A stretch of DNA of 64,000 nucleotides. Origin: Tridacna crocea (taxonomy: Eukaryota; Mollusca; Bivalvia; Cardiida; Cardiidae). The position numbers and the translations under genes are program-made. The DNA is taken from positions 34,812,172 to 34,876,171 of the forward strand of contig OX031063.1 in the NCBI GenBank assembly GCA_943736015.1. Direction: 5' to 3'. Below, in pieces: positions 951 through 61,200 of this stretch; position 1 is the stretch's first letter, and every line of letters starts with the position of its first letter. Under the pieces are notes generated by a model, which made no database searches, was not told where the DNA came from, and worked only from the letters and a program-made list of their open reading frames with translations.

Positions 951-3900
951 GTGAGTAGATCGACCAATCTTAAAACCCCTAGGTTGCTAAGCCTGATACA
1001 ATGACCTTTTGCGGACGGTGGAGTCCAAGATCAGACTGAACTGAACATGATCTTGGATCCACACTGTCAGATAGAAAATGATTTTCTCCAATGAATAAGT
1101 TTGAAATAGCAATGTCTGCTTTTTTTTAATAATCGTTATTGATTTATAGACGCACGATAAAGCCAAATTTATCTAGCCAATTCAAATATAACACATGTAC
1201 TCTCAAAATATTAAATGCCAAAGGCTAGCCCTACCAAAGTCGCTGATTACAGTTTTCGCTTGGTCATGTGTTTTTTCTTCACAATTTTACCTGAAATTGT
1301 ACAAATGAACCAACAATATTTAGTTAGGTAAACGTTTTGTTTCAGGTCCTGGGCTCGCCTTTATTGCATACCCTAAAGCCTTGACCCTCCTTCCTGCAGC
1401 TCCTTTTTGGTCCATTATGTTCTTCTTGATGATTATTTTGCTCGGCTTAGACAGTCAGGTATGACGTTAGATTTTTTCGAACACCAACAACTGTCACAAT
1501 ATTTCAAGTTCTGGTTTATACATTAGCTTTGCACGACACATACTGTTAGGTTTCTTTAATGAAGGTGTTATGAATAAGGAAAATAGAACACGGCGCTCGA
1601 ACGACTAACAGAGTGCTATAACGACTGTGGAGATAAATTTGTTTTATGCAAACCATCACCATACTTTGTCTAATACCAGCGCTAAAGAATATAAGAAAAC
1701 TGTCTTTTCTATTCGAACATTATTTTTTCTATTGATAATTTCCTAAGAATGATAAATGGAAAAGATAGTCCTGGTGTTTGACTTATTCAGTCTAATAAAA
1801 GGCATGGAATAGTATTTTATAGAGAAATTTCTTTCCACGTCCTTTGTTTCAACTCATCACCAAACGACAATATTTTAGGCTATTTCTAATCGAAAGCATT
1901 TGTAGACGAAATCTGACTGAAAATTTGAAACTTGTTTTGTGAAGGGTAGAATACATTGTGGGAAAAGGAGAAAATGCTGGTTACCAGCATTTTCTCCTTT
2001 TCCCACAATGTTTTCTAAAGGATTCTTTCTCAGGGTCGTCAAAAGTAGGGGTTGTGTGGTAATGGGTTAAAATGGTAGGACTAATGAAAACAACTACATG
2101 CACATGAAAGCTCACAAATTCATCAATACAAACAGCAGCTATACTGTTATTCTATTTTTATTCCAGTTTGTAGGTGTAGAGGGTGTTGTAACCGCAGTTG
2201 TTGACCAGTTTCCTGGATTTCTTCGTCGTGGATATAGACGAGAAATATTCATCGCTTTCGTCTGTTTTCTATCATTTCTTGTCGGTATACCGATGGTTTG
2301 TCCGGTAAGATTTCCAACACTTGGTTCTTTCCTATAATTTGTAGTACTAAAGCTTCATACAGTCATACGTATTTGCCAGGGTCCCTTTCCAACAGTATGT
2401 GATACATTTGTCCATTTGCTGTATGAAAAGGACATAGAATGCATCTGCAAAGGTTATCGACACATATCAACCTGCACAGTCGGTGCAGGGTGACATTAGT
2501 CGAAACGTTTTGCTGTTGGAAAGTTTTTGCATGGCCACAGACCACTTTACCTCGTGGTTTTGTCGGGTTTTCATACTAATGGATTTTATGGATCCACGGT
2601 TACGTTATCGTCGTTCTTGGTATTCTATATCAAGGAGATAAATTAAACCCGATTTCTTAGGGCATGGCTCATTTGGAATACAAGTAAAGACGGCGTTACA
2701 CGTATGTACCTTACGTGGCTGTGTTCCTTGTCCGTCCAAAAGACTAGTTGATCTGTGCTTCATCCCTTTCTCACTTTCATCCTATTGACGTATAATGACG
2801 TTATAGACTTTGAATTTGGCAAGAAAAAGAATACAGAATAGTTCTATCACAAATTATCTTTTTGGACGGTCCAAATCGCTTCAGACTTAAGGTCCTATGC
2901 AGCGGCTTATAGTCCGGAAAATAAGGTAAACTTTGATCAACAATGTCTGCTATTTTGTCTTATTATGATGCTCCAAGCCACTTATCCTTTCGTATGTATT
3001 GTTCAGGACTGAAAATAGCTATTCATCACTCTTTGCCATAGAACTCCCTGTTTGCACGACCCGTAGACTAAAGGCAGCATTTCGTCCCTTCACAACGACG
3101 TTTTCTCCGGATTCAATGACAGAAAGATCATCATCTGAGCCCATTTAAATTGTCATCTTCAAAAGCTTTTGATTTTGATTAGTATAAAATGTCCTTTTAT
3201 ATTCAATAGTCAACTCTTTACCGAACGACACAACTTTAGACTGGTCCAAACTGAAAGCACTTGCAGACGACAAAATAAACGCAACACAAAAATTGAACTT
3301 TGATTCCAGCAGGATTAAAAACATTGTGGGAAAAGGAGAAAATGCTGGTTACCAGCATTTTCTCCTTTTTCCACAATGTTTTCAAAAGGCTTCTATCTCA
3401 GGGTAGTAAAAACCAGGGATTGTTTGGTAAAGGATTAAGCAGTCATCTAATGTCAAACTTGACTTTGGTGCAAGTTCCTTTAAGATGGTGATTATATTTC
3501 TTTTACAGGGCGGAATGTACGTATTCCAGTTATTTGATTACTACTCAGGAAGCAGGATCATTCTGTTTGTTGCATTCTTCATGTGTATAGCTGTGGCCTG
3601 GTGCTATGGTACGTTATAGATGGGTTTACTTCTTTATGAAACTATCTCTTTTTTTAGCAAAGCAAGCAACTTTTAAAAACTTTTGTTTGATTTACAGACA
3701 ATGCTGGTAACAAGCATTTACCCATTTTCAAAACCTGTTTTCTGTCCAGCAACATTACAGTTTCATTGTTTTCAATTTCACCAATTTTGATTTGTAGCAA
3801 GAGGGTCCTTTTAAAATTGTTAGAAATTTATTTATTCATTCATTTTTTTTCTTGAACAAAAACCTTATTCTTCCATTAAAAAAATAACGATATTTCTATG

Positions 3901-6900
3901 AGGCATGTAGAACATGTTCCACAGAAACTAATTGACATTTTGTTAATAGAAATGAAGTAGGGGACAGGACAGATGCTAGACCATGTTGCGAATTTTGAAG
4001 AGTCCTCGTCTGATACAAAGCTTCTACTTCATTATGATAAAATTAAGGCTTCATTACCATCGTTTGAAAATATTTCTTTGATTTTACATAAATTATGATT
4101 AGCCTTAGGTCCCGCGAGAAACCGACATCTGCCAAGCAGCTCGAGACAAATAAATGCGACAGGAAAGTTACCAGAACATAATATATCGCATTTGTTAGAT
4201 GACAAAATTCTAGATCTTTCATATTGAAAATCTTCGCAGTTACCACATAAACCGTGTCTCAATTTGGGTTCGTAAGTTGGCCAAACACTCAGTAATCGAC
4301 CTTCAGCTCAACACAAGCCTTGTTGAGCCAGCTCGACCTTCCAGCTAAACGCCCAGCTCAACAGCAAAAGTACATATACATGTCAAAATCAAAGTCCGTT
4401 GAGCCAGCTCGACATTCCATCTCAACGGCCAGCTCAAAAGCAAAACCACGAGATCCATGTCCGTCGAGCCGGCTCTACATTCCAGCTCAACCGCCAGCTC
4501 AACTATAAAAATATTTTACATATGTTTAAATCAATGTCCGTTGAGCAAGCTCGACATTCCAGCTCAACCACCAGCTCAACAGCAAAAATACATATATGTG
4601 TCAAAATCAAAGTCCGTTGAGCCAGTTCGACGTTCCAGATCAACCGCCAGCTTAGCAGTAAAAATACTTATACAAATGTTTCAATCAATGTCTGTTGAGC
4701 CAGCTCGACATTCCAGCTCAAGCACCAGCTCAAAAGCAAAACTACTAGATCCATGTCCGTCGAGCCGGCTCTACATTCCAGCTCAAGCGTCAGCTCAATA
4801 ATAAAGATATTTTACATAAGTTTCAATCAATGTCCGCTGAGCAAGCTCGTCATTCCAGCTCAACCACCAGCTCAACAGCAAAAATACATAAACATGTATA
4901 TGTCGAAATCAAAGTCCAGATAAACCGCCAGCTCTGCAGTAAAAATACTTAAAAAAATGTTTCAATCAATGTCTGTTGAGCCAGCTCGACATTCCAGCTC
5001 AAGCACCAGCTCAACAGCAAAAATACATATATATGTCAAAATCAAAGTCTGTTGAGCCAGCCCTACATTCCAGCTCAACAGTAAAAATACTTATACATAT
5101 GCTTCGATGAATGTCCGTTGAGTCAGCTCGAAATTCCATCTCCATGTCCAGCTCAATATCAAAAATACATTTATATATCAAAATCAAAGTCCGTTGAGCC
5201 ACCTCGCTATTCCAGCTCAACCACCAGGTCAACAGTAAACATACTTATACATATGTTTCGATCAATTATCGTTGAGCCAGCTCGACATACCAGCTCAACC
5301 ACCAGCTCAACAGTAAAAATACTTATACATATATTTCGATCAATATCCGTTGCCCTAGCTCGACATACCAGCGCAACTACCAGCTCAACACCTACAATAG
5401 ATATACATGTCAAAATCAATGTCCGTTGAGTCAGCTCGTCATTCCAGCTCAACCACCAGCTCAACAGCTAAATACATATATATATATGTCAAAATCAATG
5501 TCCGTTGAACCAGCTCGACATTCCAGCTCAATGGCCAGCTCAACAGCTTCATTAAACCGATGCCTTATGTTTCACGGTCTTTGTCGATTAACAATTAGAC
5601 CGAAGTGATACAACAATGAAACAAAAATACGTTTTAATTCACCTTATGCTGAGATATGAATTTAAGCGTTTTTTATCATCCTAAAGATGAGATTGTGACC
5701 TATTATAAAATGATTCATGAATAAATTTGTTTTGGGAAGACTTTTGTCACCGCAAGAGCTGCATGGACCATTGATGCCACTGGAATTGTTTTTTTTGCGA
5801 TTACCTGAATGAATAGAAGTATTCTTTCGATTGATCTTTTCAGCAGTATAAATAATTTTAAGATTTAAAGGACTGTGTAGGCTTAGTCCGCGTGCTTCCT
5901 AAAAAATGAAAATTTTGAAGAGGTGCTATATATATGTATTTTTTTGCGGTTGAGCTGGCTGTTGAACTGGAATGTCGAGCTGGCCCAACATTTATCGAAA
6001 CATATGTGTAATTACTTTTACTGTTTAGCTGGTGGTTGAGCTGGAATGTCGAGCTGTCTAAACGGACATTGATCGAAACATATGTATAAGTATTTTTACT
6101 GTAGAGCTAGCAGTTGAGCTGGAATGTCGAGCTGGATCAACAGACTGATTTTGACAGATCTATATCTATTGAATGTTGAGCTGGCGGTTGAGCTAGAATG
6201 TCGAGCTGGATCAACGGAAATGAATCTAGTAATTTTGCTGTTGAGCTGGCGGTTGAGCTGGAATGTCGAGCTGGCTCAATGGACTTTGATTTTGATATGT
6301 ATATATGTATTTTGGCTTTTGAGCTGGCCGTTTAGCTGGTATGTCGAGCTGTCTAACCGGACATTAGTCGAAACTTATGTATAAGTATTTTTACTGTATC
6401 GCTAGCAGTTGAGCTGGAATGTCGAGCTGGCTCAATGGACATGGATCTAGTATTTTTGCTTTTGAGCTGGCCGTTCAGCTGGAATTTTGAGAGTGGCTCA
6501 ACAGACTTTGATTTTGATTGATATAAATATATATCTTTGCTGTTGAGCTGGCGTTTGAGCTGTAAGATATCAAGCTGGCTCAAAGGACATTGATAGAAAT
6601 ATATGTATAAGACTTAGTATTTTTACTGTTAGGCTGGTGGTTGAGCTGGAATGTCGACTTGGCTTAACGGACTTTGATTTTGACATATATATGTATTTTT
6701 GCTGTTGAGCTGGCAGTTGAGCTGGAATGACGAGCTGGCTCAACAGACATTGATCGAAACAAATATATAAGTATTTTTACTGTTCAACTGGCACTTGAGC
6801 TGGAATGTCGAGCAGGCCCAACGGACATTGATCGAAAAATATGTATAAATATTTTTACAGTGGGCGGGCGGTTGAGCTGAATTGTCCAGCTGGCTAAACG

Positions 6901-9900
6901 GACATTGATCGAGTATATTTACTGTTGAGCTTGCCGTTGAGCTGGAGTGTTGAGCTGGCTCAACGGACTTTAATTTTAACATATATATGTATTTTTGCTG
7001 TTGAGCTGGTGGTTGAGCTGGAAGGTCGAGCGAGCAGACTTTGATTTTGACCTATGTATTTTGGCTGTTGAGCTGGCTGTTGAGCTGGAATATCGGGCTG
7101 GCTCAGCCGATATTGATCGAAACATAATTATGTATAAATAACTTTACTATCGAGCTGGTGGTTGAGCTGGAATGTTGAGCGGCCTCAACCGACTTTGATT
7201 TCGACATATATGTGTATTTTTGCTTTTGAGTTGGCCGTTGAGCTGGAATGTCGAGCTGGCTTAGCGGACTTTGATCGAAACATATGTAATAAGCATTTTT
7301 ACGTTCGAGCTGTCGGTCGACCTGGAATGTCTAGTTGGCTCAACGGATTTTAATTGTGACATAATTATATATGTATTTTTGCTGATGAGCTGGCCGTTCA
7401 GCTAAATGTCGAGCTGGCTCAACCGACATTAATCGAAACATATGTATAAGTATTTTTGCTGTTAAACCGGCTATTGAGCTATAATGTCGAGCTGGCTCAA
7501 AGGGCATTCATCGAAATATATGTATAAGTATTTTTACTGTTGAGCAGGCAGTTGAGCTGGAATTTCGAGCTGGCTCAACGGACTTTGATTTTCACATATA
7601 TATTTTTACTGTTGAGCTGGAATGTCGAGTGTGCTCTACGGACTTTGATTTTGACATATATGTGTATTTTTTCTGCTGACCTGGCAGTTGAGCTGTAATG
7701 TCGAGCTGGCTCAACAGACATTAATCGAAACGTATGTATAAGTATTTTTACTGTTCAGCTGGCGTTTGAGCTGGAATGTCAAGCTGGTTGAACGGACATT
7801 GATCGAAACGTATGTATAAGTATTTTTTACTTTTGAGCTGGTGGTAGACCTGAAATGTTGAGCTGGCCAAACGGATTTTGATCGAAACATATGTATAAGA
7901 ATTTTTCAGCTGGAATGTCGACCTGGCTCAATGGACTTTGAATTTGATATATACATGTATTTTTGCTGATGAGCTGGCCGTTCAGGCGGAATGTCCAGCT
8001 GGCTCAAAAGACATTGATCGAAACATATGTATAGGTATTTTTACTGTTGAGCTGGCGGTTGAGCTTGAATGTCGAGTTGGCTCAACGGACTTTGATCATG
8101 ACATATATTTGTACTTTTGCTGCTGAGCTGACCGTTTAGCTGGAATGTCGAGCTGGTTTAACAAGGCTGGTGTTGAGCTGAATGTCGATAACTGAGCGTT
8201 GAGCCAAGTTAATAGACCCTCTCAAGTTATGAGTTTTTTTTCTTTAAAGGGAATGTTGTTAAAGGAGAATGGGAGAAAATGCTCATAACTAGCACTTTCT
8301 CATTTTCAGAATATGTATTCCTACAGAACTCTTTCATCGTGGTTGTAAAAATATGGAAATTTTCAGTAAAAAAATGAAATTGTCACACTGTTTCAAAAAT
8401 ACTTTACTTACAGGCGTTAACCGTTTTTATGACAACTTAGAAATGATGCTAGGTTGGACCATCAACCCATACATGAAAATTGGATGGGCAGCAGCTTCAC
8501 CTATCTTCTGTATAGTACGTAATGAGTTCTGTTCCCTGTTACCATATTAACTACATATATTATATTTCATGTTCCTATTTTTTAGAAATGGTATGGGTAA
8601 AGAAATGACGTCATTCAAGCTGGGGGGGGGGGGAATTATTTCCCCGTCAGAGTGAATATTTTCCTCCGGCCGAAAACCTGGTCAATTGACTTGAGATCAC
8701 TAGTTTCAAAAGTAGCATTCGTTGACAAAATAATCAGAGGAAATATATAATTCATTTCACCAGCTTGTGGTTAATATGGGAAAATATTTGCCTCAAAAGG
8801 GAAAGGTCCACGAAAATAACTCGTGCCCTCCGGCACGAGTTATTTTCGCATACTTTTCCCTTTTTCGGCAGATATTTCCCCATATTAACTGCAAGCTGAT
8901 GAAATAAACTCTATGTAATCGCCTCTTACATTTGTTTTGAATTTTGTATAATACAGAAGAACGATTTTAAACCCATTGAATAACGATTTGGCTGCTATGC
9001 AAGACTTCTTGGCCTTTTGTGGGCAATGTATATCATGACCAGACTGCACAGAACGTGCAGTCTGAACTCTGATCTACACTGTCCGAGAAGGAGTAATTAT
9101 TCCCTAAAACTTAATTTTGAAATAGCAATACTTGAGTTTTTACTATCGAAATGAAAATGTGATTTTACTTATTTAGCATGATAAAGGTTGATCTAGAGTT
9201 TGTTCAATAAAGAGTCAACTTAACCCTTTCCCAAACAATCCCTGTTTTTACGACCATGAGAATGAAGCCTTTTGAAAACATTGTGGGAAAAGGAGAACAT
9301 GCTGGTAACCCTCATTTTCTCCTTTTCCCACAATGTTTTCTACCCTATTGGAAACAATTTTCATTTTCTTAGTTACTTTTATTTTGTCATCTGCAAGTGC
9401 TTTCAATCTGGACTAGTTTCAAATTTTGTCGTTTTGTTAAAAAGTTAAGTCTTAAGTCTCTGTTATTTCAGACAATATTTATAATGAGTGCTATAACATA
9501 CTCGGAACTGGACTATAAGAGACCCAAGGGCACATACCATTATCCCACATGGGGGGTCGGGCTCGGTTGGATGCTGGCCATTTTTTCGGCTATATGGATA
9601 CCAATTGTCTGGATTTACCACGTGGTCCGATATGGACAGAGTTGGGAGGTAAGATAGTCACCAGCCTCGGCCCCTTCTTTAAAAATCTATATTGCTAGAT
9701 GAACTTCAAAATTCCATATTTAAGTACCCTTTTCCAGTCTTGTAGGTAGATACAAGACCAGACTGCTGAGCACTTGCAGTACTATCTTGACTTATATTGT
9801 CTGTTACATTACCTCGAGGGGCTCTAAACAGACGTGTACTTTCTCCATTCATTCCGTCTCATTCCATTCCTATATGTCGAAAATTTGATGACAGAATCTT

Positions 9901-22600: not shown

Positions 22601-25600
22601 AATAAAACGATCAACAGAATGAAAGTTGAATTATCACGTGGTGTTTACATCACTATTACGTCACTGTGGATATTAACGACGAATAGTCGACTAATTGTTG
22701 GCAATTTGGTTTTAAAGACAAGTCTTCTTTACATTTGGATTTTACTGAGACTTTAAGATTAGTTGTAGAAGTGAATACAGACACAGGGCTCTACACAGTT
22801 TCCTACCAAGCCACTGGCTGCTTTCTCAAGTAACTGCAATCAGCGATGAGGGAGAATGAATCCTGTCTCGATGACTTTTATCAGGCCGGTACAATTACCT
22901 TGCCACAAACGACCATAGGCAATGTTAACCCTTTACCCGAAATGCCAATTTGAGGCTCTTCCATTTCAGCAGCAAATAAAGATATGATGTCAGAAATATC
23001 CGACAAATGAGGATACAAATACCTGATTGAGTGGAAAACATTGTGGGAAAAGGAGAAATTGCTCGTTACGAGCAATTTCTCCTTTTCCAACAATGTTTGC
23101 AAAAGCTGTCTTTCTTTGCGTCAAAATGAGTATCTATGGAGTAAAGGGTTAAATTGGTTTTTGATACAAGAGTATGTACGGTCATATGAGGGGAAAAATA
23201 TTGGGTAAAGGATAAGTCGCTTGCTGTAAATTGATACAGATGCGATTTTCCCACGACCCCTTTAAAAGGGGAAAATAAAAACTTAGATCTTTACATAACG
23301 ATAAAATTTCAACCTTGCTCTGATTCGAAAGTTTTTGAAGTTGACTGTAAAAGTTACTCAAACTATATTTGAAAGTGTTGAGAGCAATTTGTTTTTTTTT
23401 TTGAAAACAGAACAAAATGCTTATTATCAGCTTCATTTCCTTTCCCCAAAATGTTTTCTAGAGCACTTTTTCAAACCTGGGATTGATTCGTAAAGGACAG
23501 ATACATAGACGTTGACAGAGTTATTATAATTATATAAAATTATAAAAGGGGGCTTAATGCATCTCAAGATACCGGCCCAAGTCATCGCATAAGTAACTGT
23601 TTTTTAAACCGACTACATCAAAAGGTAGATATGTCCTTGGACACACAGAAAATTGACCAATATCGAAAAGTTTCGACCCAGGTCAGCCTGCGCGGATTGC
23701 GCAGGCTGACCTGGGTCGATACTTTTCGCAGATGCCGCCTTTTGCCAGAACCGCAACTCATATCAATTATGTATCTACAAAACAGCTGTTGACATAAACG
23801 TACATGTGGGTGGATTTGAAACTTATCTTTTTTTCAGTGTCGAATACGTTAGCGTTGCAAAAAGGAGGCTGACCTGGGTCGATACTTTTCGCAGATGCCG
23901 CCTTTTGCCAGGACCGCAACTCATATCAATTATGTATCTACAAAACTGCTGTAGACATAAACGTACATGTGGGTGGATTTGAAACTTATCTTTTTTTCAG
24001 TGTCGAATACGTTAGCGTTGCTCTGGCAAAAAAGGGAGTTAAGTGTACTTCTCTGATGCATAATACCAAGCAAAACGTCAAATTCATGTCATTACGGATT
24101 CGTAAAACCAATTTTCTTTTAGCTGGCTTAATCCTGGGATAGAATGGTCCATGAACATACAAAATTTACGAAAAGCAAAAAGGTTCAAACCATATCGCCT
24201 TGAAACTCTGACATATTTTCTATCCTACAGTCTTGGCTGAATATCCTGACGTTATAGACCAACATCAAGCAGCGTGTTCTATGCAGTCCTATCATATATT
24301 GCCTACAAAATTGTCAATGAAAAGCCAAACAATAATTAGATCTACATGTATGGCTTCATCCGATTGTCTGGGTTTTAGTAGATAGAAAGGAAAATGGCTT
24401 TATCCCCGCTAAAGCCAATACGACGCAATAAACCTTGAAATTTTGAAATATCCATTTACATAATCTTATCGTACGGAGTTCCTTAAGTGATATTTTTATT
24501 CACATCTTTTATTTTTTGCAAATTTTCTAAATGGTTTTGTAAAATTTACCAAACATTATATGTACTTGCCAATTACAAAATATATCTGAAACACGAACAG
24601 AACTGTGGTGCTTCGTAAGCTACTGCCTATCTTTTCCGTCTGACCGCCCTTATATCCAACTGTCTGTCTGGTTGTCTGCCCGCCGGCCCGCCCGCTTACC
24701 CGTTTGCGTGCCGTGTGTCTGTCTGTATGTCTGTCTCTTTTCTTTTCTCTCCTCTAACTATCTCTCTCTTACATATGTTCACGTGCTAATGGCCCGTTTT
24801 TATACTCGGTGTCTACCTGGACGCGAGTTAAGAGTTGTTGTTATTCAGTTCTAAAAAGGACGTAAACATCGTCATGGAGTATATTTACCTTGTGCAAATA
24901 AGAGATTGTGAAACAAAATTGAACCATAAATTTCATCTTCTTTTTATCTTGTTCGAGGTAGTATCACACACGTAAATAAAACCCTCTAAAACACATTAAG
25001 TTTTATGTTTGTTTATAAAAGAAAGTGTGTGTGTGTGTGGGGGGGGGAAGGGGAAGAGAGAACCATATCTTGCCCAACCCTTATACTGCCGCATAAATTC
25101 AAATGAAACTTTCATGCCCAAAGTAAAAATCTAAGTTTTACATTTCAATCGGATTTTTTTTTTTTTGGAAAGATACCTTCTTCTCAGACAGTGTAGATCA
25201 AAGATTAGGCTGCACGTTCTGTGCAGTCTTATCTTAATCTGCATCGTCTGAAAAAGGTCATAGAGTCGCGCATAGTATACAGCCTGAGGATAAAGACCTA
25301 TTTCCTTCGCAAAAAGTAAAGACCAAGATCCACCTGTATGTGTGTAAATACATGTAAGTCTTTTAGACAGAGAGACACCTGGGCCCGTATTCACCAACCA
25401 TTCTTAAGAATATTCTTAGTCTTATTCTCCAAGAATTTCTACGTTTGTAAGTAACACAACTTCTGATTGGCTAAACCGAATGGTTTAGCCAATCAGAAGT
25501 TGTGTTGCTTACAAATGCAGAAAATTCTGGAGAATAAGACAAAGAACGTTCTTAAGAATGGTTGGTGAATACGGGCCCTGGACTGATTTGAGTCGTACAA

Positions 25601-28600
25601 TGTCTTATTAATCTATGCCATGCAAAAGTAGCCTATACATTTACTGCGCCACTGGTGAAGATATTACCAATGATGTTCACGCGATGAAATATCGTCGAGT
25701 GTCCTTATTCCGTGAGTGTCCTTGAACCGGTGTTTTTGTGGAACACACCTTGTAAAGCATATAGTTTAATGACGTCAAACGGTATATCTGCTCGTAACCC
25801 TTACCAATATTCGAACGTTTTATTGCCCTTGAATTTCATACAAATACAAGACAAATACATGTGAAATTCAACTATTAATCGTTTGTAAAGGAAGTTTACT
25901 TTTTTTCTTAATCTAAATATTGTTCTGTCTCAAAAAATGCAAAAAGATCTTCGACTTTCCGCTGTAAATACTACCGAGCTACCGGAATAAGGTCACGCCA
26001 TGTTTTCACAAGAAGGCCGACGACATGTTCTTTATTTGTTCTTTATTTGTGCACATTGAACATGAAAATTGTTACCTAATTTATTCTTTTCATATGAAAA
26101 TGATCAAAAATGACTTTTTTTTGAAGGCAAGTAATTTTTAGTTCATATTCAGATCTCAGTTCTTAATTTCATCATGCTGGAATACGGACACTCGAGGCTT
26201 TAATTTCGATCTGTAACCGAAAAAAAAACCCCCACAAATATTCTCTATATCATTTTCACAATATTTACCATATACATTTAAATGATATGATCTAATTTTA
26301 GTTCCAATTTCATACCTGTATTGATTTTTTGGCCGCTTTAGGGCCGGTAAAGATCCTTATTCAAAGACTTACCTTCTATTTGGCCGATGCTATTGTCATC
26401 ATTCAGTAAAATGTTTATTTTTTTTGGTAAGAAACAAAATGACCATCAGCATTTAATATAAAAATGATTTCCACAAACATCGAATTTTCAAAATGGGTAT
26501 TAGTTCAACGTATCTTACAGTTACAAATAGGTCATCATTTATTCCCCTTCTCAATACTTTTTACCATAAATAAATAAACCATGTTCTGTGAAAAGAAGGT
26601 TTAATGCATCTGCAAAAAGTATCGACCCAGATCAGCCTGCGCAGACCGCGCAGGCTGACCTGGATCGAAACTTTTTGATTTTAGTATGTTCTCTGCTTGT
26701 CAAAGATTCAGTTAGAACTTGTCCGACAAAATTAGCTCCATGGATCCATAATTGTTAATTGTGTGTTGACTTGCTCGGTGTAATACATTATGGAGATACA
26801 CAATGCAAACTTTTGCCAGAGCATGGAAACCCCTTTTTGTCAGAGAATGGCTCAAGTCTATTACGGCCAAATCGTAAAATTGTCATATAATTTATAGCAA
26901 ACAGAGATGGTATCAGAGTAATTTAACAAAATAATTGACTTTCAAAGGACACTCAACTTTCAAATAAGATTCTCTTTCTTTTGTGACTGCTCAACGTTTT
27001 CTTGATAACAAAGCAGTAGAGGTCATCCATCGAAAACATTAATGTCAACCCCAAAACTGGTGAATAAATGAACGAAAATTTCCATTCATCAGTAAAAACT
27101 CAAACACTATCTATTCAATAGTCAATGGTAATTTCAACAGAAAGAAAATACAGTCACGTTTCGTGCTGTCTGATCTTTATCTACACTGTCACAAAAGGCG
27201 CCCCGAGTCACGCAGAGCAAGCTAAGGGTTTTGACAGGCCTCCTTACCGAGTTGATACCTGGACATGTTACAATAAATAGATCACTATTTCTCATTGCCA
27301 GCAGTTTCTTCTATTGAAATCTTTTACCAGAAGAAAATGTGTAGACTTGTCGAAAATGCAAACATTTGTAGACTTGTCGAAAATGCAAACATTTATAGAC
27401 CACAAATTCGACGAGTCTCATTTAACGGAATTTGCTTTCGAAGAGATCGAAATGGAAAATGGAGGAAATGCTGATTATCTCCTTTTTCAACGGTTTTTTT
27501 CCAGTCATTTAGCTTTTTGGCAAATGATTGATTTTGATTCCCAAAAAATATCTGCTGTATGACAGTTAGAAATACATTAAACACTTGACGATTCACTTAA
27601 GGATATGAAAGTGTTGTTTTTTTTTTCAATAACTTTTTTTATAGGGACATCCAACCGGATATCGTTTCATATTTTTCTTTCAGTTTTTCTAAGAAGACTT
27701 GTAGTTTATATTTAGGTGCAATGATGACTTTGAGATAGGAATACGCATAGAAAGCACGAGAAGTTACCCAGCTATTTATAATAAGGGGGGGGGGGGGGTC
27801 TCATTTGCGCCCACGCATGGATTTTCTTGATACTTTGCAAGCGAATTGCCTTTGGCCTATGAACTGCAAAAATGTATTTATCTACTTCAAATAAGACATG
27901 TAGGTCTCAGGAGGGCACCTTGGGGTACTCCTAGTTTTGGCTGATACCTGCCTTGAACAAGAGCTTCGCAAAGCGGCGCATATACGCCCGAAGGGGCTTG
28001 TCAGTGAAATGAGTTGAAATGACGGAAGGGCCATGAATGAAGAGTAGTTAATCTCCATGATATGTGAAAAATATTAAAGGGCAATAACTAAAAAAAGAAA
28101 GGGTGGCACAGTTACAAATTTTGTAAATTGCTGTTCTCCACAAGGTGTTCTATCAGTTTTGAAAGGTTCAAGATCATAGCTTTTATATTTTAGAAATTAT
28201 GGCCCAGACGAAAATTCAAAGAGAAAACTAACAAAGGGCAATAACTAAAAAAAGAAGGATGGCAGAGTTATGGTTCTTGTGTAGTGCACTTCTTTATAAT
28301 GTGTTCTATAAGTCTTTGAAGTTTCAAGATGATAGGTTTTAAAGTTTGGGAGTTATTGCCTGGACAAAAATTCAAACTAAAAAATTAACAGAGGGCAATA
28401 ACTAAAAAAATAAAAGTCGCAGAGTTACGGTTCATGTGCACTGCACTTCTCCATAATGTGTTCTATCGGTGTATGAAGTTGCAAGTTATTAGCTTTTATA
28501 GTTTGGAAGTTATGGCCTGAACACAAATTCAAACTGAAAATTAACAAAGGGCAATAACTCAAAAAATAAAAGTGGCAGAGTTATGGTTCATATGCGATGC

Positions 28601-31600
28601 ACTTCTCCACAATGTTATCTATCAGTGTATGAAGTTCAAAGTTAATAGCTTCTATAGTTTAGAAGTTATGGCCTGGACAAAAATTCAAACTGAAAATTAA
28701 CAAAGGGCTGTAACTCAAAAAATAAAAGTGGCAGAGTTATGGTTCTTGTGCACTGCACTTGTCCATAATGTGTTCTATCAGTGTATGTAGTTTCAATTTA
28801 ATACCTTTTATGGTATGGAACTTATGGCCTGAACAAAAATTCAAAGTGAAAAGTTGGTCATTTCAGAAATCAAGGGCAGATAATTTTGGAACGGAAACAG
28901 CGATCAAAATTCTAAGACCCAGGTGCACAACTAGACATCATGGAGATTCATTGTGGCAAGTTTCAAATAATTCCGATGAAAACTGTAGGAGGAGTTGCGC
29001 ACACAAGAAATTGCTAACGGACGGACGGACGGACGGACGGACGGACAGACGGACGGACGGACGGACGGACGGACGGACGACCGGGGGTATAACATAATAC
29101 GACCCTTCGGGCGTATAAAAAACTAAGTCCAAAGTTATCAAAATTCATTATTTTCCTAAAACTTTAACATGAATAGTAAAGGTACACCTTATAGAGATAT
29201 TAGATACAAATTGTGCTATTATAGGTATTGACTTGACTGTTTTTTAAAAACTTGAATGTAAAAAGTATGGATAAAATTGACACTGAAATTTTCCAAACAC
29301 AAAGTTCAACAAAACATTTATGGTAGTTCTAGTCTTTGTCAACCTATGAAATTGCTAGGAAAGTAGGCCCTGTATGTCTACATAATACACACAAAATTTT
29401 ATAAAATTTGAAAACCGGTAACAATCTCATATTATGCATGATATGAGCAAAGGTGGTGTTTTGGACAAAAATCTAATGTCCATCTAAATTGTGTTATGGT
29501 TACCAAAACACTTTCTAATGCAATAATATCGATATTTTTGCATAACTAACTATGATAAATGAAAGATTCACATACAGAAACAGACTTCTGTAAAGGTATA
29601 GCAGTAATTATACAGATATTTTCCTAAGAAAGTAGCATGTATGAAAATAAACCCCAAAAAACACCAATTCACAAATTATTTTTATTTAATAAATATTCCT
29701 TTCATCCCAAAATATATTCTACACTTCTAATTTTCAATAGGACAATCATCTGAAGAAAGTGGCTTATCATTAAAAGAGTTTTAGACAGGGTGCTCCACTT
29801 TTACCATAGATATATGCATGTCTTAACAAAGACATTCAGATGACAACCAGTAAATCAATTATTATACTAATAGCAATATTGTTAACACCATCTAGATGCA
29901 ACTCGTGCATACGTTAATGGTCTGGCAGTACCTGGCAATTAGTAAGGTTACCTATATCAACAACTTTGAAGTTTGAATTAAAAAACTGTCAGCAAAACAT
30001 ACTTGTGTCTGAAAACATATTTTATATTTTTTTATATATTTGAACATCCTTAATGATGATTTTCTTTATACATATGAATGGTTTTAACAAGAGTCATCGT
30101 GATATCAACAAATTGTTTTTCCTTGAGGTTGATACTGGCTACAAAGACAAAAAGTGATTATCAATTACATTCACTTTCCACTAAACAGAAAAGAACAAGA
30201 AAACACTTCTACATCATTATACAATACTCCTATATTTGTTAACCGTTTTCTGCTGTCATACACAATTCATTTCTTTGAACAAAGTCTGACTGTATAGCTT
30301 TTCAAAAAGTACATGTACTCATACTGGTATTTCATTGAAACTGCTTTCTTCTGTAACTCCAAAAGTCACATTTTAAACGCTAGTGTAACACTCATGCCTA
30401 AACTACTTTCTAATTGAAACATTTCATTCTGCCTTGTTGCACTTCATCAGCTAAGAGAGTAGTTTACTTATTACATGTATTTTAGTCTATGTTTTGTCAT
30501 ATTTGATACTAGCTTTTGTAGTTGCCAATAATTGAAAAAACATAGCTACATTAATACAGACTTAATTCTATTAAAAGTTGTTTATACATTTTTGACTTCA
30601 GCAATTTGCAGTCAAGGCTGAAGTTCACAAAAGGGTGACAGAAAAGATTAAGCATTATTTAGCTGTATTCCACTCTCTTTGGTTCTCTGAGCTTTGGTTA
30701 TTCTCCTCTTGTTTATATCAGTGTTTCTTTTTCATATCAATTTACACTTTGTATTATTTATACATCAATTGGGTAATTCCATTGTGGTTTTCACACATTT
30801 TACTATTTGTAAAACTTAGGACAAGAAGTCTAATTATTTACACCTTAGTAGGTTGTTCATAGGACATCATATGGTATCATATGGAAAAGATGTATAGAAT
30901 TGGCTTAATGAGAGTGAAACAAAATAAAAATCATTAATAAGTAGTGTTAAATTATCTGTTTGCACTGAGTAATAGTAAACTCCTCAGAAGTCCGCATAGG
31001 AGCAGTTTTAATAGATAACATCTGATCTATTTTCATTATCAGACTTTCAATTGAGTTTTAATATTGCTATTTTTGATTTTCTTTATGGTGTTCAACAAGG
31101 TGCTATTATTTCTGCAAAAACTCTTTTTGGTAAATAAAGCATTATCTTTTGATTGTATGCGAAGTTTCTTATACCAGAACATCGCACAAATCATAAACAT
31201 GTGTAAATAAACAATAATAAAAACCCTAAAACAAAACAAAAAAAAAAAATGTGAATTTTACATTTTGAGAAAATTTGACCATTAAGACTAAAATTAAAAA
31301 AAGACTATGTTACCGGTTTTATTTTTTCTTGATATTTTAGGATAAGAACAAGCATATTTGTGGTCAAATTCAATATCAATTTCATAGGTTGACAAGAACT
31401 GTAACATGGTGAAAATAACAATTCAATTTGTTCAAAATATTTTACAAATGTGAAATTTGGGGGTCACTTCAATCAAAAATTGATATGGTCAATTTTGTTC
31501 AATATAACAATATAAACTAAAGGTTCATACATGATTGGAGATTAATAAGCATTATTTTAGGAACAAATTTGGTCAGCAAATCAAAAATCAGAAGGACTGT

Positions 31601-55200: not shown

Positions 55201-58200
55201 TTGTCGATGCATTAATCCTTTACTCCATAGATACTCATTTCTACGCATTGCTTGCAGGAGCCTTTTGAAAAAAATGTGGCAAAAGGTGACGAGCAATTTC
55301 ACCTTTTGCCACAATGTTTTCTATGCTATCCAAAGGTGTCACATACACATAAGAAACGGCTTCATCCTTGCTGTTATTTAGGGTCAATTTGAGATACCTT
55401 AGAAATGCCTTACGGGGTAAAAGGTTAATTTTCTGCATGTTAAAGGACCATTCTACCTCACGGTGTAGCTGTTTGTCCGGCAAAAATTGAATTTCACGGT
55501 CTCATAACTATGTGTGATCTGCTTGGTATCGTGCATCACAAAGACACATTAAGTTCCGTTATGCCCATTTTGCCTGAGCAGAAGCCTTTTGAAAAAAAAT
55601 ATTATAGGATAAGGAAAAACATGCTGGTAACCAGACTGAAATTGTCGTCAGCAAATACTTTCAGTTTGGACAAGGCTTAACTCATTACCAAACGACAAAA
55701 TTTTAAGTTGGTCCACATCGAAAGCATTTGCATACGACAAAATAAAAGTGACTGAAAATTTGATTTTTTTTTGTGAAAGGTAGAAAACATTGTGGGAAAA
55801 GGTGAAAATGCTGATTTCCAGCTTTTTCTCCTTTCCCCCCGATGTTTTCTATAGGCTTTTTTCTCAGGGTCGTCAATAGTAGGGATTGTGTGGCAAAGGG
55901 TTAAATATTGTCATCTGGTAAAGGTTAAAAGTTGTCTAAACCATCTTTGAAAAAAAAATCTTTCCATTTTATAGGTAATGTATGTTACAGCAACCTCACC
56001 TTACATCTTCATGACAGTTCTACTCGTCAGAAACTGTTTGCTGGACGGGGCAAGGGAGGGAATTGAGTTCTACGTAAAGCCAGACCTTTCCAGATTAAAT
56101 GACACACAGGTAAATTTGTCTCCCTTAAGAGTCCGCACAGACTAATCCGAAATGACACTTTATGTAATTTTCTGTTGTGTGAAAGTCTACTGTATGACAA
56201 GATCTAATATAGTCGTAAAGTGTCGTCTCAGATTAGCCTCTGTGGACTGCGCAGGCTGATCCGAGACGGCACTTTACGTTAATGTCCGAATAGCAGGCCA
56301 TTTTACATCTACTTTATTTTAACAGAAACCTGTACATGAATGGAATTAAAAAACATGGAAGAGAACGTGCAATCTGGTAACGTTATTTGTATTAACCATT
56401 TTCAGGCTAAATATATAGAAAAAATAAAATAAAAAGAATATGGAGCGCAACACACGAAAAGGTGCATTCGGACATTTGCGTAAAGTGTCGTCCCGGATTA
56501 GCCTGCGCAGTCCGCGCAGGCTAATCCGAGACGACACTTTACGACTACATTAGATTTTGTGCTACAGCAGACTTGCATAAAACAGAAAATCACATAAAAT
56601 CGGAAAGTTTCGTTTCGGATTAGCCTGTGCGGACTGCAAACGCTGATTAGAGACGACACTTTACGCAAATGTCCGAATGACCCTTTTCGCGTGTTGCAAG
56701 CCAATTATAATGTTGATTGGTTATGGAAGACTTGATATTACAGTTGTGCACTATACCCATGAAGAAGATCCTTGTGAATTTCCTTTGAAAAAACAAATCT
56801 CTCTTCTAGGTTTGGGTGGATGCCGGTACGCAGATTTTCTTCTCATATTCCATATCTTTAGGAGCTTTGACAGCCCTCGGAAGCTATAACAAGTTCAATC
56901 ACAATTCATACAGGTTAGTTACCATTAAACGTATGCGCCATATCTCTCACTGTCCTCTATATCCTTCTCCTCATTCACTCTATAATCATTAATATCATCA
57001 TTATCAATATCATCATCGATAACATCTGACACAGTTTCAGTCCTTAATATTTTTTACTTCTGACAGCACAGACTTTGTTATGATTTATATCACAACACTC
57101 TGTAATAATTATAGTTTTGTTGATATACGGCATTAAGTACTTTAAATATATCTCTAGCCCTTGTATATGTACAATAAAGATGACAAAAACAAAGTAAAGT
57201 GGTCATCGTCATTTACTATCTTACCCAACAGCCCCGTGTCTGACCAACATCGAGTATGAAGCAGTTCAAAAGCATCAAAATGTATCCAGTATTTTCTGTC
57301 TTATCAGCAAAACTTTGTCTTTTGTTAGATAGAAACATTATTTGAGTCACATGAATATTTGGTCTGTAAATACTTTCAAGTCTATATTTTTCGTCATCCA
57401 GTAAAGACTAGAGCGATATATCTGAACATTTTCAAGCACAAAGCAAGTCACCAATAGGTTGCCCATTATTAGAAAATTATAGTCTAAATAATTGTAAATG
57501 TAAGATTTGTAAAAATTGTCCTATAACATAATTACCGTAATGCCAGATTGTGATTAAAAGATAAACCAGTAATTTGTAAAAAATGCTACTAACATGGTCA
57601 TCTACAGGATGAGAAAGGTTGACTGCTGAAGGTTTCCAACTAATTCAAAATCTTTTCTTTCTTTGCAGAGATGCTATTATTTTTGCTCTGACAAACAGTG
57701 GAACCAGTATCTTTGCTGGTTTCATCATTTTCTCTATTCTTGGACATATGGCGCACATTCAGTCAAAGGACATTGCTGATGTTGCCGAAGCAGGTATGTA
57801 CTACTACATCAATTCTAACTCAGTAAAACCTTTAACCTGCTATATAAGTTAAATAAAACTTTCAAGCTTGATAGTAAAAACCCAAATGTTTTTATTTCAC
57901 ACTAGAATAAACGATTTCATTTCGCTCTTGTTTACGGAATCCTGTTTCCGCCATCCACTTTTCGACCTACGAGGAACTCGAAAAGTAGAAATTAGGCACA
58001 CTAACTTCCACTTTTCTAGCCAAAAAGTTACCTCGAAAAGTCGAAAAATTGAAGTTTTTGACCTGACAATTGTCATCAAACTTTCCACTTTTCGACTTCA
58101 CGTTCGCCTAGAAAAGTAGAAATTAGAAAGCACTAACTTCCACTTTTCGCCTTAAAATGCTAGGTCGAAAAGTAGAAAAGTGGAAGTTTTTTCACATGAC

Positions 58201-61200
58201 AATTGTCAATAAAACTTCCACTTTTCGACCTGGAAAAGACAAAGTCGAAAAGTTGAAAAGTCGAAAAGTTGAAAAGTCGAAAAGTCGAAAAGTGGAAGTT
58301 AGCCGATTAAAACTTCCACATTTCTAGTTAGGACTAATTGTTCGCAGGATAAATTGGTCGCGTTATTATTTTGAATGTACACCGGACAAAGGAAGATGGC
58401 GGGAGCGAATGGTAGAGGTTAAATGTACACCGAATAAGTCTGATGTCAGCCATAATACGGCAACTCCCTAATTTTCATTTTAAACCCGCCCTTATCGCAT
58501 TGAGCACTACGTCCTTCAGGCTTTAACAGTGTACACATTATTAGATGTATTGAAATCATGTGGCCTGCAACACGCGAAAAGGGGCATACGGACATTTGCG
58601 TAAAGTGTCGCTTCGGATCAGCCCTCGCAGTTCGACACTTTCCGTTTTATGTAATTTTCAATTTAGCGCAAGTCTACCGTGGCACAAAATCTAATGTGGT
58701 CTTACAGTGTCGTGTCGGATCAGCCTGTACGGTCTGCGCAGGCTGATCCTAGGCGGCACATTATGGAAATGTCGGAATGCCCTTTTTCGCATATTGCAAG
58801 CCATATATAGTTGATACTTTGGACACTGATTAGTCTTTAAAGTTTAAAGGACCCATTTCACCGAAAAATATTCCCTGAAGATTGAGTTGCGATCTCAAAA
58901 TGTGGCTTGATCGCCGCTGATTGCAAGTAATCGGCGGTTGAACACACCTTGGTCTTCTGTAGTCGCACAAGGTCGAGGGAAAGTATTCCCCACCCCCCCC
59001 CACCCCCCCCCCACCCAAAGAAAGATCGAAACTAGGTTTTTGACATGTCAAAAAACTAAGCTGCGACCTGTGCGATCTGGAAAATCTCAGATAGATTGCC
59101 GAAAGATCGTCCGTTAAACCATTTTTTAAGGGACCTTATCCAACTCGGATTTACTTTGAGAAAACCTGCTATAGGCGAAAAGTTTCAACATGGCACAATT
59201 CCTGCAGTCTGACCAGATCGAGATGGTCCCTTTTCCTGTGACGGGTTGCATATCATGAAATGATACTACTAGACATTACTCAACCGAAATACCAACGCGG
59301 CAGATTCGGGGAGGTCATATTGATTTTAATGTAACAATGGGGAAAATATCGAGTTCCGAGGACAGAAATCCGTAATCGAGTTCGGAGGACATTTATAGAT
59401 CCACAATCGACTCCGATCAGCATCATAGATAGGCCTACATCGACATTTTCATTAACCTTGCAAAGATTATGAAGGATCCCGGTGCCCACGCCGAGCCAGT
59501 GTTCGAACCAGCGACCCAGATGTTGACAAGTCACACATTTTAACCCATTGCCACACGATTCCTGTTTTTGACACTTTTGCAAAAAATCATTTGGGAAAAC
59601 ATTGTTAGAAAAGGAGAAATAACTTTTTAAAAACTATTTCTCTCACAATGTTGTCTACTCTATACTACACAGATTTCAATGCACACTTTGAAATGTCGTA
59701 TTCAGTTTCTTTAAATTCGGACAGTCTTTTATTTTTTGTCATCTCGTAATGGGTTAAACGTGGTTTGAAAATGTCTTGATGCGCAGTTCCTGACTAGATT
59801 TGTGTAACTATAAACTCAGCCCATAGGCGGTATTGGATAAAGATATCTCTCAACTCGGACGCGTCGTATAAGGCGTTAAAAAAACTCGTGCTGCGCACTC
59901 GTTTTTTCAACGCCTAACAACGCATCCTCGTGAGATATTTTTCATATAAAAAATAACCAGTTGATTATTCTATTTATTATATACCTTATTATTATCAATA
60001 TTTGTAATTTTGCATTTGAAAGTCGAAAAAAAATGTAGTCGAAAAAAAAGTAGTTCCCAAATTACGTCAGGAAGTGAAAGTGAAAGTTGATAACGTCACT
60101 AGTGATAATATCAAAATTTATTACACTGGGAAATTCCAGGATTTCACTGCTAGGTTTATAATAAAAAGATATAGACGTCAGACTTAAACAGTGTACATGT
60201 ATATTTATTCGGTGGAGGTTTAACTTTCACCGAGTCCAAATACGAAGGACCGGTGACACAGGAATTTTTACCCCTACACCGGCTCCAACATTATTCGGTG
60301 CGGATAAACAAACATCCCGTGATAATCAGTCCTAACTAGAAAAGTGGAAGTTTTAACGCTAACTTCTACTTTTCAACTTTTCGACTTTTCAACTTTTCGA
60401 CTTTGTCTTTTCTAGGTCGAAAAGTGGAAGTTTTATTGACAATTGTCATGTGAAAAACTTCCACTTTTCTACTTTTCGACCTAGCATTTTAACGCGAAAA
60501 GTGGAAGTTAGTGCTTCCTAATTTCTTACTTTTCTAGACAAACGTGAGGTCGAAAAGTGGAAAGTTTTATGACAATTGTCAGGTCAAAAACTTCAACTTT
60601 TCGACTTTTCGAGGTAACTTTTTTGCTGGAAAAGTGGAAGTTAGTGTGCTTAATTTCAACTTTTCGAGTTCCTCGTAGGTCGAAAAGTGGATGGCGGAGA
60701 CAGGATTCCGTACTTGTTACCTTTGTTCGCGTTTCCTCAGTGCTTCTGCTATGCTGTTGGCGATGAGCCAGGCCGATGATATATTTTTGTACCCCACAAC
60801 CTTGCTGATTAGCGTATGAACTTTCACCATTGTCTCCACTTTTTTCCTGTACTCCAAAATATCAACATGGACGGGTCGAAATGCCACCTCATCAGTTAAG
60901 AAAGACAAAAAGAAGACCTGGGTCCCTATTCACCAACCATTCCGAAAAACATTCTTGGTCTAATTCTTCAGAATTTCATCGATGTGAAAGTAATAAAACT
61001 TCTGATTGGCTGAAGTGGTTTAGTCATTCAGAAGTCCTTTTAAGTTTTAGATGTGTACCAAGGTGTCTGTCTGGTAGAGAGGTAACACGCCATCACCACG
61101 TGAATTGTGGGTTCGATTCCCACGGCTGGTCAATTAAAAGTATTAATAGTCTTTCGTATTAGACGTTAAACCGAGGTGCCGTGTGACGGTGCTATACACC

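Follow-up and report, generated by a model that had tools for sequence, protein, structure and literature searches.

Do two facing minisatellite arrays in an intron of a giant clam gene form one mobile element, and if so, what moves it? The question is raised by a 64,000-nucleotide stretch of the Tridacna crocea genome (contig OX031063.1, positions 34,812,172 to 34,876,171; hereafter the window), in which a reading made from the letters alone had proposed a foldback element with tandem-repeat arms inside an SLC6 gene. We find that positions 4266-8219 of the window very probably belong to a family of foldback DNA transposons, as a non-autonomous and probably old member that would be mobilised in trans by a transposase, most likely of Mutator-like type.

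A single unit with inverted, tandemly repeated arms

The edges of the element were placed by local alignment of its outer ends, which runs out to a GGGT that forms the outermost bases at both 4266 and 8219 and gives a length of 3,954 bp. The element proposed in the sequence-only reading is therefore present, with its edges, set there at 4274 and 8210, corrected outward by 8-9 bp per side. An inverted-repeat search returned 323 inverted pairs within 3800-8700, the longest being 267 nt at 81% identity. The outer ends had been said to pair over ~27 bp; they do pair, but further than this, since the outermost of the 25 listed pairs joins 4273-4445 with 8039-8211 at 87% and the alignment reaches the GGGT.

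Tandem Repeats Finder placed units of ~76-78 bp, with variants of ~65 bp, in tandem at ~4325-5547 and ~5941-8156. A 22-base unit motif, with up to 6 mismatches allowed, was then scanned over the whole window. All 16 forward occurrences lie in the left arm and all 28 reverse occurrences in the right arm, with one further occurrence elsewhere in the window, which agrees with the earlier claim that the arms are inverted at the level of the unit. Spacings between motifs are mostly 74-79 or 60-67 bases (one is 82), and near-double gaps occur once in the left arm (139) and twice in the right arm (157 and 167). The arms are thus unequal in this copy, and its long inverted ends built of tandem subrepeats have the architecture of the foldback class.

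Copies across the genome

Further copies were sought in the genome assembly from which the window comes (31 contigs, 1.05 Gb). A 43-base end of the element, with up to 3 mismatches, was found at 449 termini (231 forward and 218 reverse), compared with 0 and 0 for the reversed control, and a 65-base form of the terminus gave 79 and 62 matches, compared with 0 when reversed. At least 182 matches were obtained with the whole element as query and at least 40, at 88-100%, with the left end (40 of 671 candidates scored in each case); the left-end matches start at query base 1-12, with one at 19, the GGGT being query base 11. Further copies with the same termini, on which the sequence-only reading had staked its proposal, are therefore present. 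The core has 28 genomic matches (26 candidates, all scored), of which 13, counting the window itself, span 300 or more of the 393 bases. We therefore treat the core as a marker of a subfamily and the ends as a marker of the family. At 30 terminus loci (L009-L038, the window's own among them), comparison by eye showed that the sequence is shared inward of the GGGT and differs outward; L031 is missing its last bases.

Copies with two ends, 24 in all, measure 534 to 6,401 bp, the longest two containing nested insertions, and smaller copies are implied by the listed termini, for example one of 275 bp at C1:61210281-61210555. The unit motif occurs 402 times in these 24 elements, and all 402 occurrences fit a forward block followed by a reverse block when the block boundary is set separately for each element. 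Since all 24 copies have the inverted layout, an assembly fault confined to this locus does not explain it. Arm length varies from copy to copy, as in the foldback class, with 1-16 forward and 2-28 reverse motifs, the window copy being the richest. The ends of the window copy are 89.5% and 90.7% like the consensus, below most other copies compared by blastn, a divergence that places it probably among the older ones.

The listed termini are clustered along the genome. After merging into 125 elements, 51 have another within 300 kb, compared with 8.5 expected and with 22 as the highest of 500 uniform draws, in a test that used the listed termini and guessed lengths for three contigs. Examples lie at C1 42.1-42.7, C9 17.8-17.9 and C17 26.1-26.5 Mb.

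Target-site duplications and empty sites

The sequences flanking 22 elements with both ends were compared, after exclusion of L001, L009, L039, L053 and L063, which show copies already represented. At a length of 9 bp, mean identity between the two flanks was 0.712, compared with 0.324 for mispaired flanks. At 7, 8 and 10 bp the values were 0.305, 0.341 and 0.395, against 0.311, 0.308 and 0.308 for the mispaired control, so that 9 bp is the only length at which flank identity clearly exceeds the control. Flanks agreed at 8 or more of 9 positions in 9 of the 22 elements and in none of 462 mispaired combinations. Perfect 9-bp duplications were found at two further elements, L067 (GTTTTACGT) and L080 (TTTCAATTC), bringing the number with 8 or 9 matching bases to 11 of 24. 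Dispersed copies of the family are thus flanked by a target-site duplication, as are members of the foldback class. For the window copy, the sequence-only reading had pointed to 4265-4274 and 8210-8220 as the place of such a duplication; a direct repeat exists, just outside these intervals, at 4257-4265 and 8220-8228, with 8 of 9 bases identical.

Empty sites were sought with queries in which the two flanks were joined by script and one copy of the duplication removed. The joined flanks of L003 (C18:38675284) match at least 40 other places across the junction at 86-91% (40 of 4,136 candidates scored), the matches running from query base 1-15 to 211-220 with the junction at 110. Therefore, L003 is inserted in another repeat family whose matched members lack it and keep one copy of the 9 bases, and empty sites exist for this one copy. 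The window's joined flanks were part of the same query, and all 40 scored places went to the repeat around L003. For seven further copies, each set of joined flanks matched its own two flanks (40 of 1,319 candidates scored). The joined flanks of L013 also match a repeat family that starts ~20 bases or less from the junction, which lends weak support, and one stray match fell at 1378-1437. The element is mobile: the claim that a single mobile unit with tandem-repeat arms underlies this locus is borne out by the 449 shared termini, their differing flanks, the 9-bp duplications and the empty sites of one copy.

Shared sequence of unit and terminus, and a proposed mechanism

The unit and the terminal consensus, as typed, have in common a 23-base stretch, TCGACATT-CAGCTCAAC-ACCAGC, with a score of 31. 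This score was reached by none of 2,000 first-order resamplings of the terminus, the best of which scored 26, and the window's own right and left ends scored 31 and 24, respectively.

From these features, we infer a cut-and-paste mechanism. A transposase from another element, most likely a Mutator-like one, would act in trans and recognise the terminal domain, excise the element and insert it at a staggered cut, giving rise to the 9-bp duplication. The ~77-bp units, which repeat part of the terminal domain, may act as added transposase-binding sites. This role is proposed by analogy, because the tandem repeats in the ends of Galileo contain extra transposase-binding sites, according to the available part of its description (PMC3688188), and because the unit and terminal domain of Tetris likewise share sequence (PMC4079207, available part). 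Slippage or unequal exchange would multiply the units in the two arms independently of each other, so that arms of unequal and variable length result.

Source of the transposase

The genome contains 61 matches to the Mutator-like element (MULE) domain (101 candidates, all scored), many of them in frames of at least 300 amino acids. L077 encodes FLYWCH and MULE domains, L075 and L076 encode a MULE domain, and the inverted ends of all three are arrays of 15-16 bp tandem units. Flanks match at 9 of 9 positions in L075 (AACCGAAAC), where the match coincides exactly with the limits of the inverted alignment, and in L077 (GCTTACACT). A Mutator-like source is the most likely, since L075 and L077 combine a transposase domain with tandem-repeat ends and 9-bp duplications. 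The 9-bp duplication of the foldback family also fits the range of the Mutator superfamily, given as 8-11 bp and often 9 bp in the part of PMC6446971 available. Of the 61 MULE matches, 15, that of L077 included, lie in frames of 515 amino acids, most with equal score, which suggests that this MULE family may be young.

A number of observations weigh against a Mutator-like source or, more broadly, against the mobile family as described. No transposase gene was found together with foldback termini among the listed termini and the loci compared. Twelve of the 61 MULE matches, compared together with ~2.3 kb on each side, all lack the termini, and no MULE match comes closer than 104 kb to the 147 terminus places listed, which are a minority of all termini. 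When the longest open frames of these 12 loci were used as tblastn queries, neither L001-L067 nor the window gave a match. The 9/9 flank matches of L075 and L077 are each the best of ~3,000 placements (chance match ~1%), that of L077 falls ~5-6 bases outside its arrays, and the flanks of L076 gave no convincing duplication. Among the 22 foldback copies, 9 match at 6-7 of 9 flanking positions and 4 at 4 or fewer. L014 rises from 1/9 to 8/9 after a one-base shift, and the right end is damaged in both L031 (2/9) and L060 (1/9); the 4/9 of L018 is without explanation. The flank of L021 is itself a foldback array, and the evidence comes from one genome assembly. Finally, a GG end and a 9-bp duplication also fit Merlin, for which 5'-GG ends and 8-9 bp duplications are reported in the available part of PMC8101967.

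The last point leads to the strongest alternative, in which the mobilising transposase is of Merlin type (IS1595-like) and all other steps are as proposed above. The foldback family starts with GGG and makes a 9-bp duplication, as this would require. However, only 5 partial Merlin-domain matches, in open frames no longer than 101 amino acids, were found genome-wide (6 candidates, all scored), compared with 61 MULE matches, and none of the 5 lies within 0.8 Mb of a terminus, by eye and among the termini listed. We consider a Merlin-type source improbable.

P elements make 7-8 bp duplications, and at these two lengths the flank identity of the foldback family stays near its control (values above). 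A P-superfamily foldback like Galileo, whose long, internally repetitive inverted ends are similar in architecture (PMC3688188, available part), is for this reason very unlikely. The comparison with FB and Galileo in the sequence-only reading thus holds for architecture but not, as far as Galileo is concerned, for duplication length, there being no flank signal at 7 or 8 bp.

We also considered L080, a 6.4-kb copy that carries pieces of a multi-copy gene, as an autonomous partner. An 80-amino-acid piece of this gene has 125 genomic matches (128 candidates, all scored). By eye, four of those outside L080, including a 53% relative, are 2-4 kb away from listed termini, as might be seen if the gene were the family's own transposase. 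However, a different transposon, nested in the left array and bounded by ~40-bp inverted ends of its own, makes up the inner 4.57 kb of L080. It was found whole and with matching ends, from query base 8-18 to 4581-4591, at no fewer than 20 further places (33 of 7,220 candidates scored). L080 was rejected on this ground, and an autonomous role for it is hardly credible. Pfam searches with ten pieces of L080 gave just two weak matches below the cut-off, both from one piece; the gene may encode a DUF7869-type protein. The nested transposon occupies positions 481-5057 of L080, within an AT-rich spacer of the foldback unit. At around C1:6.31, C8:33.48 and C8:44.16 Mb, further copies of it adjoin foldback termini of the list, which might hint at a preference for landing in such arrays. 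Equally incredible is the view that no mobile element exists here and that two independent minisatellite arrays stand in chance inversion, or one array was inverted by local rearrangement, which would suit the satellite-like units and the unequal arms (16 and 28 motifs) but not the 449 shared ends, the 9-bp duplications, the empty sites or the two-block layout of 402 of 402 motifs in 24 elements.

Relation to described elements

The FB element of Drosophila has inverted ends made of subrepeats. Galileo, with inverted ends of the same kind, differs in belonging to the P superfamily (PMC3688188, available part). The closest described case is Tm1, a Mutator/Foldback family of root-knot nematodes. 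According to the available part of its report (PMC3169594), Tm1 resembles the window family in several ways: its composite inverted ends consist of tandem repeats, its arms vary in length, its non-autonomous copies differ in their middles and its duplications are mostly of 9 bp. In contrast, the units of Tm1 are ~14 bp long rather than ~77 bp, its outer 7-bp motifs are asymmetric whereas GGGT stands at both ends here, and one Tm1 copy has a Phantom-like transposase, of which none was found in the window family. Tetris of Drosophila virilis, as described in the available part of PMC4079207, resembles the window family in its long units (220 bp) within inverted ends, its 8-10 bp duplications and the lack of any autonomous copy found, in addition to the sequence shared by unit and terminal domain. 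It is, however, a fly element with three structurally complete copies, likened here by description and not by sequence. The foldback element of the window therefore looks like a new family of an already known kind.

Within the same genome, L075 and L077 are alike in their tandem arrays at inverted ends and 9-bp duplications, but differ in their 15-16 bp units, their transposase domain and a terminal sequence without a match to the window family. Satellite-like repeats spread by a mobile element are also a feature of tandem-repeat miniature inverted-repeat transposable elements (MITEs) reportedly present in the clam Donax. The same is described for bivalve Helentron/HINE and CvA-type elements in the accessible parts of PMC7492417 and PMC11136912. 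The Helentron types have a single array between end modules (PMC7492417), whereas in the window family the arrays are themselves the inverted ends and are accompanied by a 9-bp duplication; the layout of one array without inverted array arms that marks Helentron/HINE is not that of the window family. The sequence-only reading knew of no foldback element in bivalves, and none from bivalves, clams or molluscs is described in the titles and opening abstract lines of the literature searched, which covers few subscription papers and does not establish absence from print. In the accessible parts of three bivalve satellite papers, PMC7492417 and PMC11136912 among them, the term foldback occurs just where Tetris is described or among the references.

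Arm growth and shrinkage can be traced copy by copy in this family, because its termini number in the hundreds, its ends are defined, one copy has empty sites and lengths span a few hundred bases to several kb. A survey of bivalve transposons removed tandem repeats from automatically made libraries, according to the part of it available (PMC10294476), a step that could trim or drop such elements and leave a blind spot. In Drosophila, chromosomal inversions arose from copies of Galileo (PMC3688188, available part); by analogy, we also infer that the hundreds of inverted arrays in this genome are candidate breakpoints.

Gene context and predicted RNA hairpin

The element lies in an intron between two exons of an SLC6 gene, in agreement with the sequence-only reading, the exons at 3467-3613 and 8419-8517 matching consecutive parts of the SNF profile (Table 1). 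The downstream exon scores under the cut-off and was accepted because it continues the profile. The predicted RNA fold of the element has an energy of -1986 kcal/mol, compared with -1036 to -1099 for 11 dinucleotide shuffles, and contains 1,089 pairs between the arms, compared with 169 in the one shuffle counted, with 4266 pairing with 8219. The fold lies far below the shuffles, and chance is therefore excluded as the source of the inverted structure. The earlier suggestion that the pre-mRNA could form a long duplex is consistent with this model, in which the element is a passenger in the SLC6 intron with a long RNA hairpin predicted from its structure. Downstream of the second exon, a short inverted repeat was noted by eye at ~8755-8905, centred near GAAAATAACTCGTGCC / GGCACGAGTTATTTTC.

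Table 1. Positions in the window of the foldback element, its parts and the adjoining SLC6 exons
Feature	Position	Strand	Basis or remark
SLC6 (SNF, PF00209) exon upstream, profile 394-442	3467..3613	+	E 2.5e-10
Left target-site duplication, TCTCAATTT	4257..4265	.	8/9 identical to 8220-8228
Left terminal domain, GGGT start, common to hundreds of genomic termini	4266..4321	+	Alignment, genome searches
Left arm, 16 forward unit motifs	4322..5547	+	Tandem Repeats Finder, motif scan
Core, non-repetitive, 393 bp, subfamily marker	5548..5940	.	Genome search
Right arm, 28 inverted unit motifs	5941..8162	-	Tandem Repeats Finder, motif scan
Right terminal domain, inverted copy of left terminal domain	8163..8219	-	Alignment
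Right target-site duplication, TCTCAAGTT	8220..8228	.	Flank comparison
SLC6 (SNF, PF00209) exon downstream, profile 443-475	8419..8517	+	E 1.6e-4, 21 bits, under 27-bit cut-off

Other array-ended elements

A second foldback-like element lies at 57933-60712 of the window. Pieces of its arms of 186, 74, 94 and 47 nt pair at 95-98%; the arms contain 132-bp and 8-bp subrepeats and start with TACGGAATCC. It is flanked by a 6-bp direct repeat, CTTGTT, at 57927-57932 and 60713-60718 (one copy), and its arm has at least 40 genomic matches at 97-100%, that in the window among them (40 of 518 candidates scored); a pair of matches may be the two arms of one copy. A further case is a nested element at 989-2300 of L067, whose inverted ends are perfect over 20 bp (GCCAATCTGTGAAATCAGCC) and which has palindromic tandem units of ~29 bp at both ends, inserted in a TATATA-rich spacer of the foldback unit.

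Because the window family with its 9-bp duplication, the family at 57933-60712 with its 6-bp repeat, the nested element of L067 and L075, L076 and L077 are all array-ended, it is tentatively possible, although we would not favour it, that foldback ends arose repeatedly in this genome, in unrelated transposon families using different transposases. If so, the genome would tend generally to turn inverted ends into arrays, and repeat libraries stripped of tandem repeats would hide them. The window contains two other tandem arrays, at 23703-24021 (163 bp x 2.0, 98%) and 28065-28852 (156 bp x 5.0, 82%).

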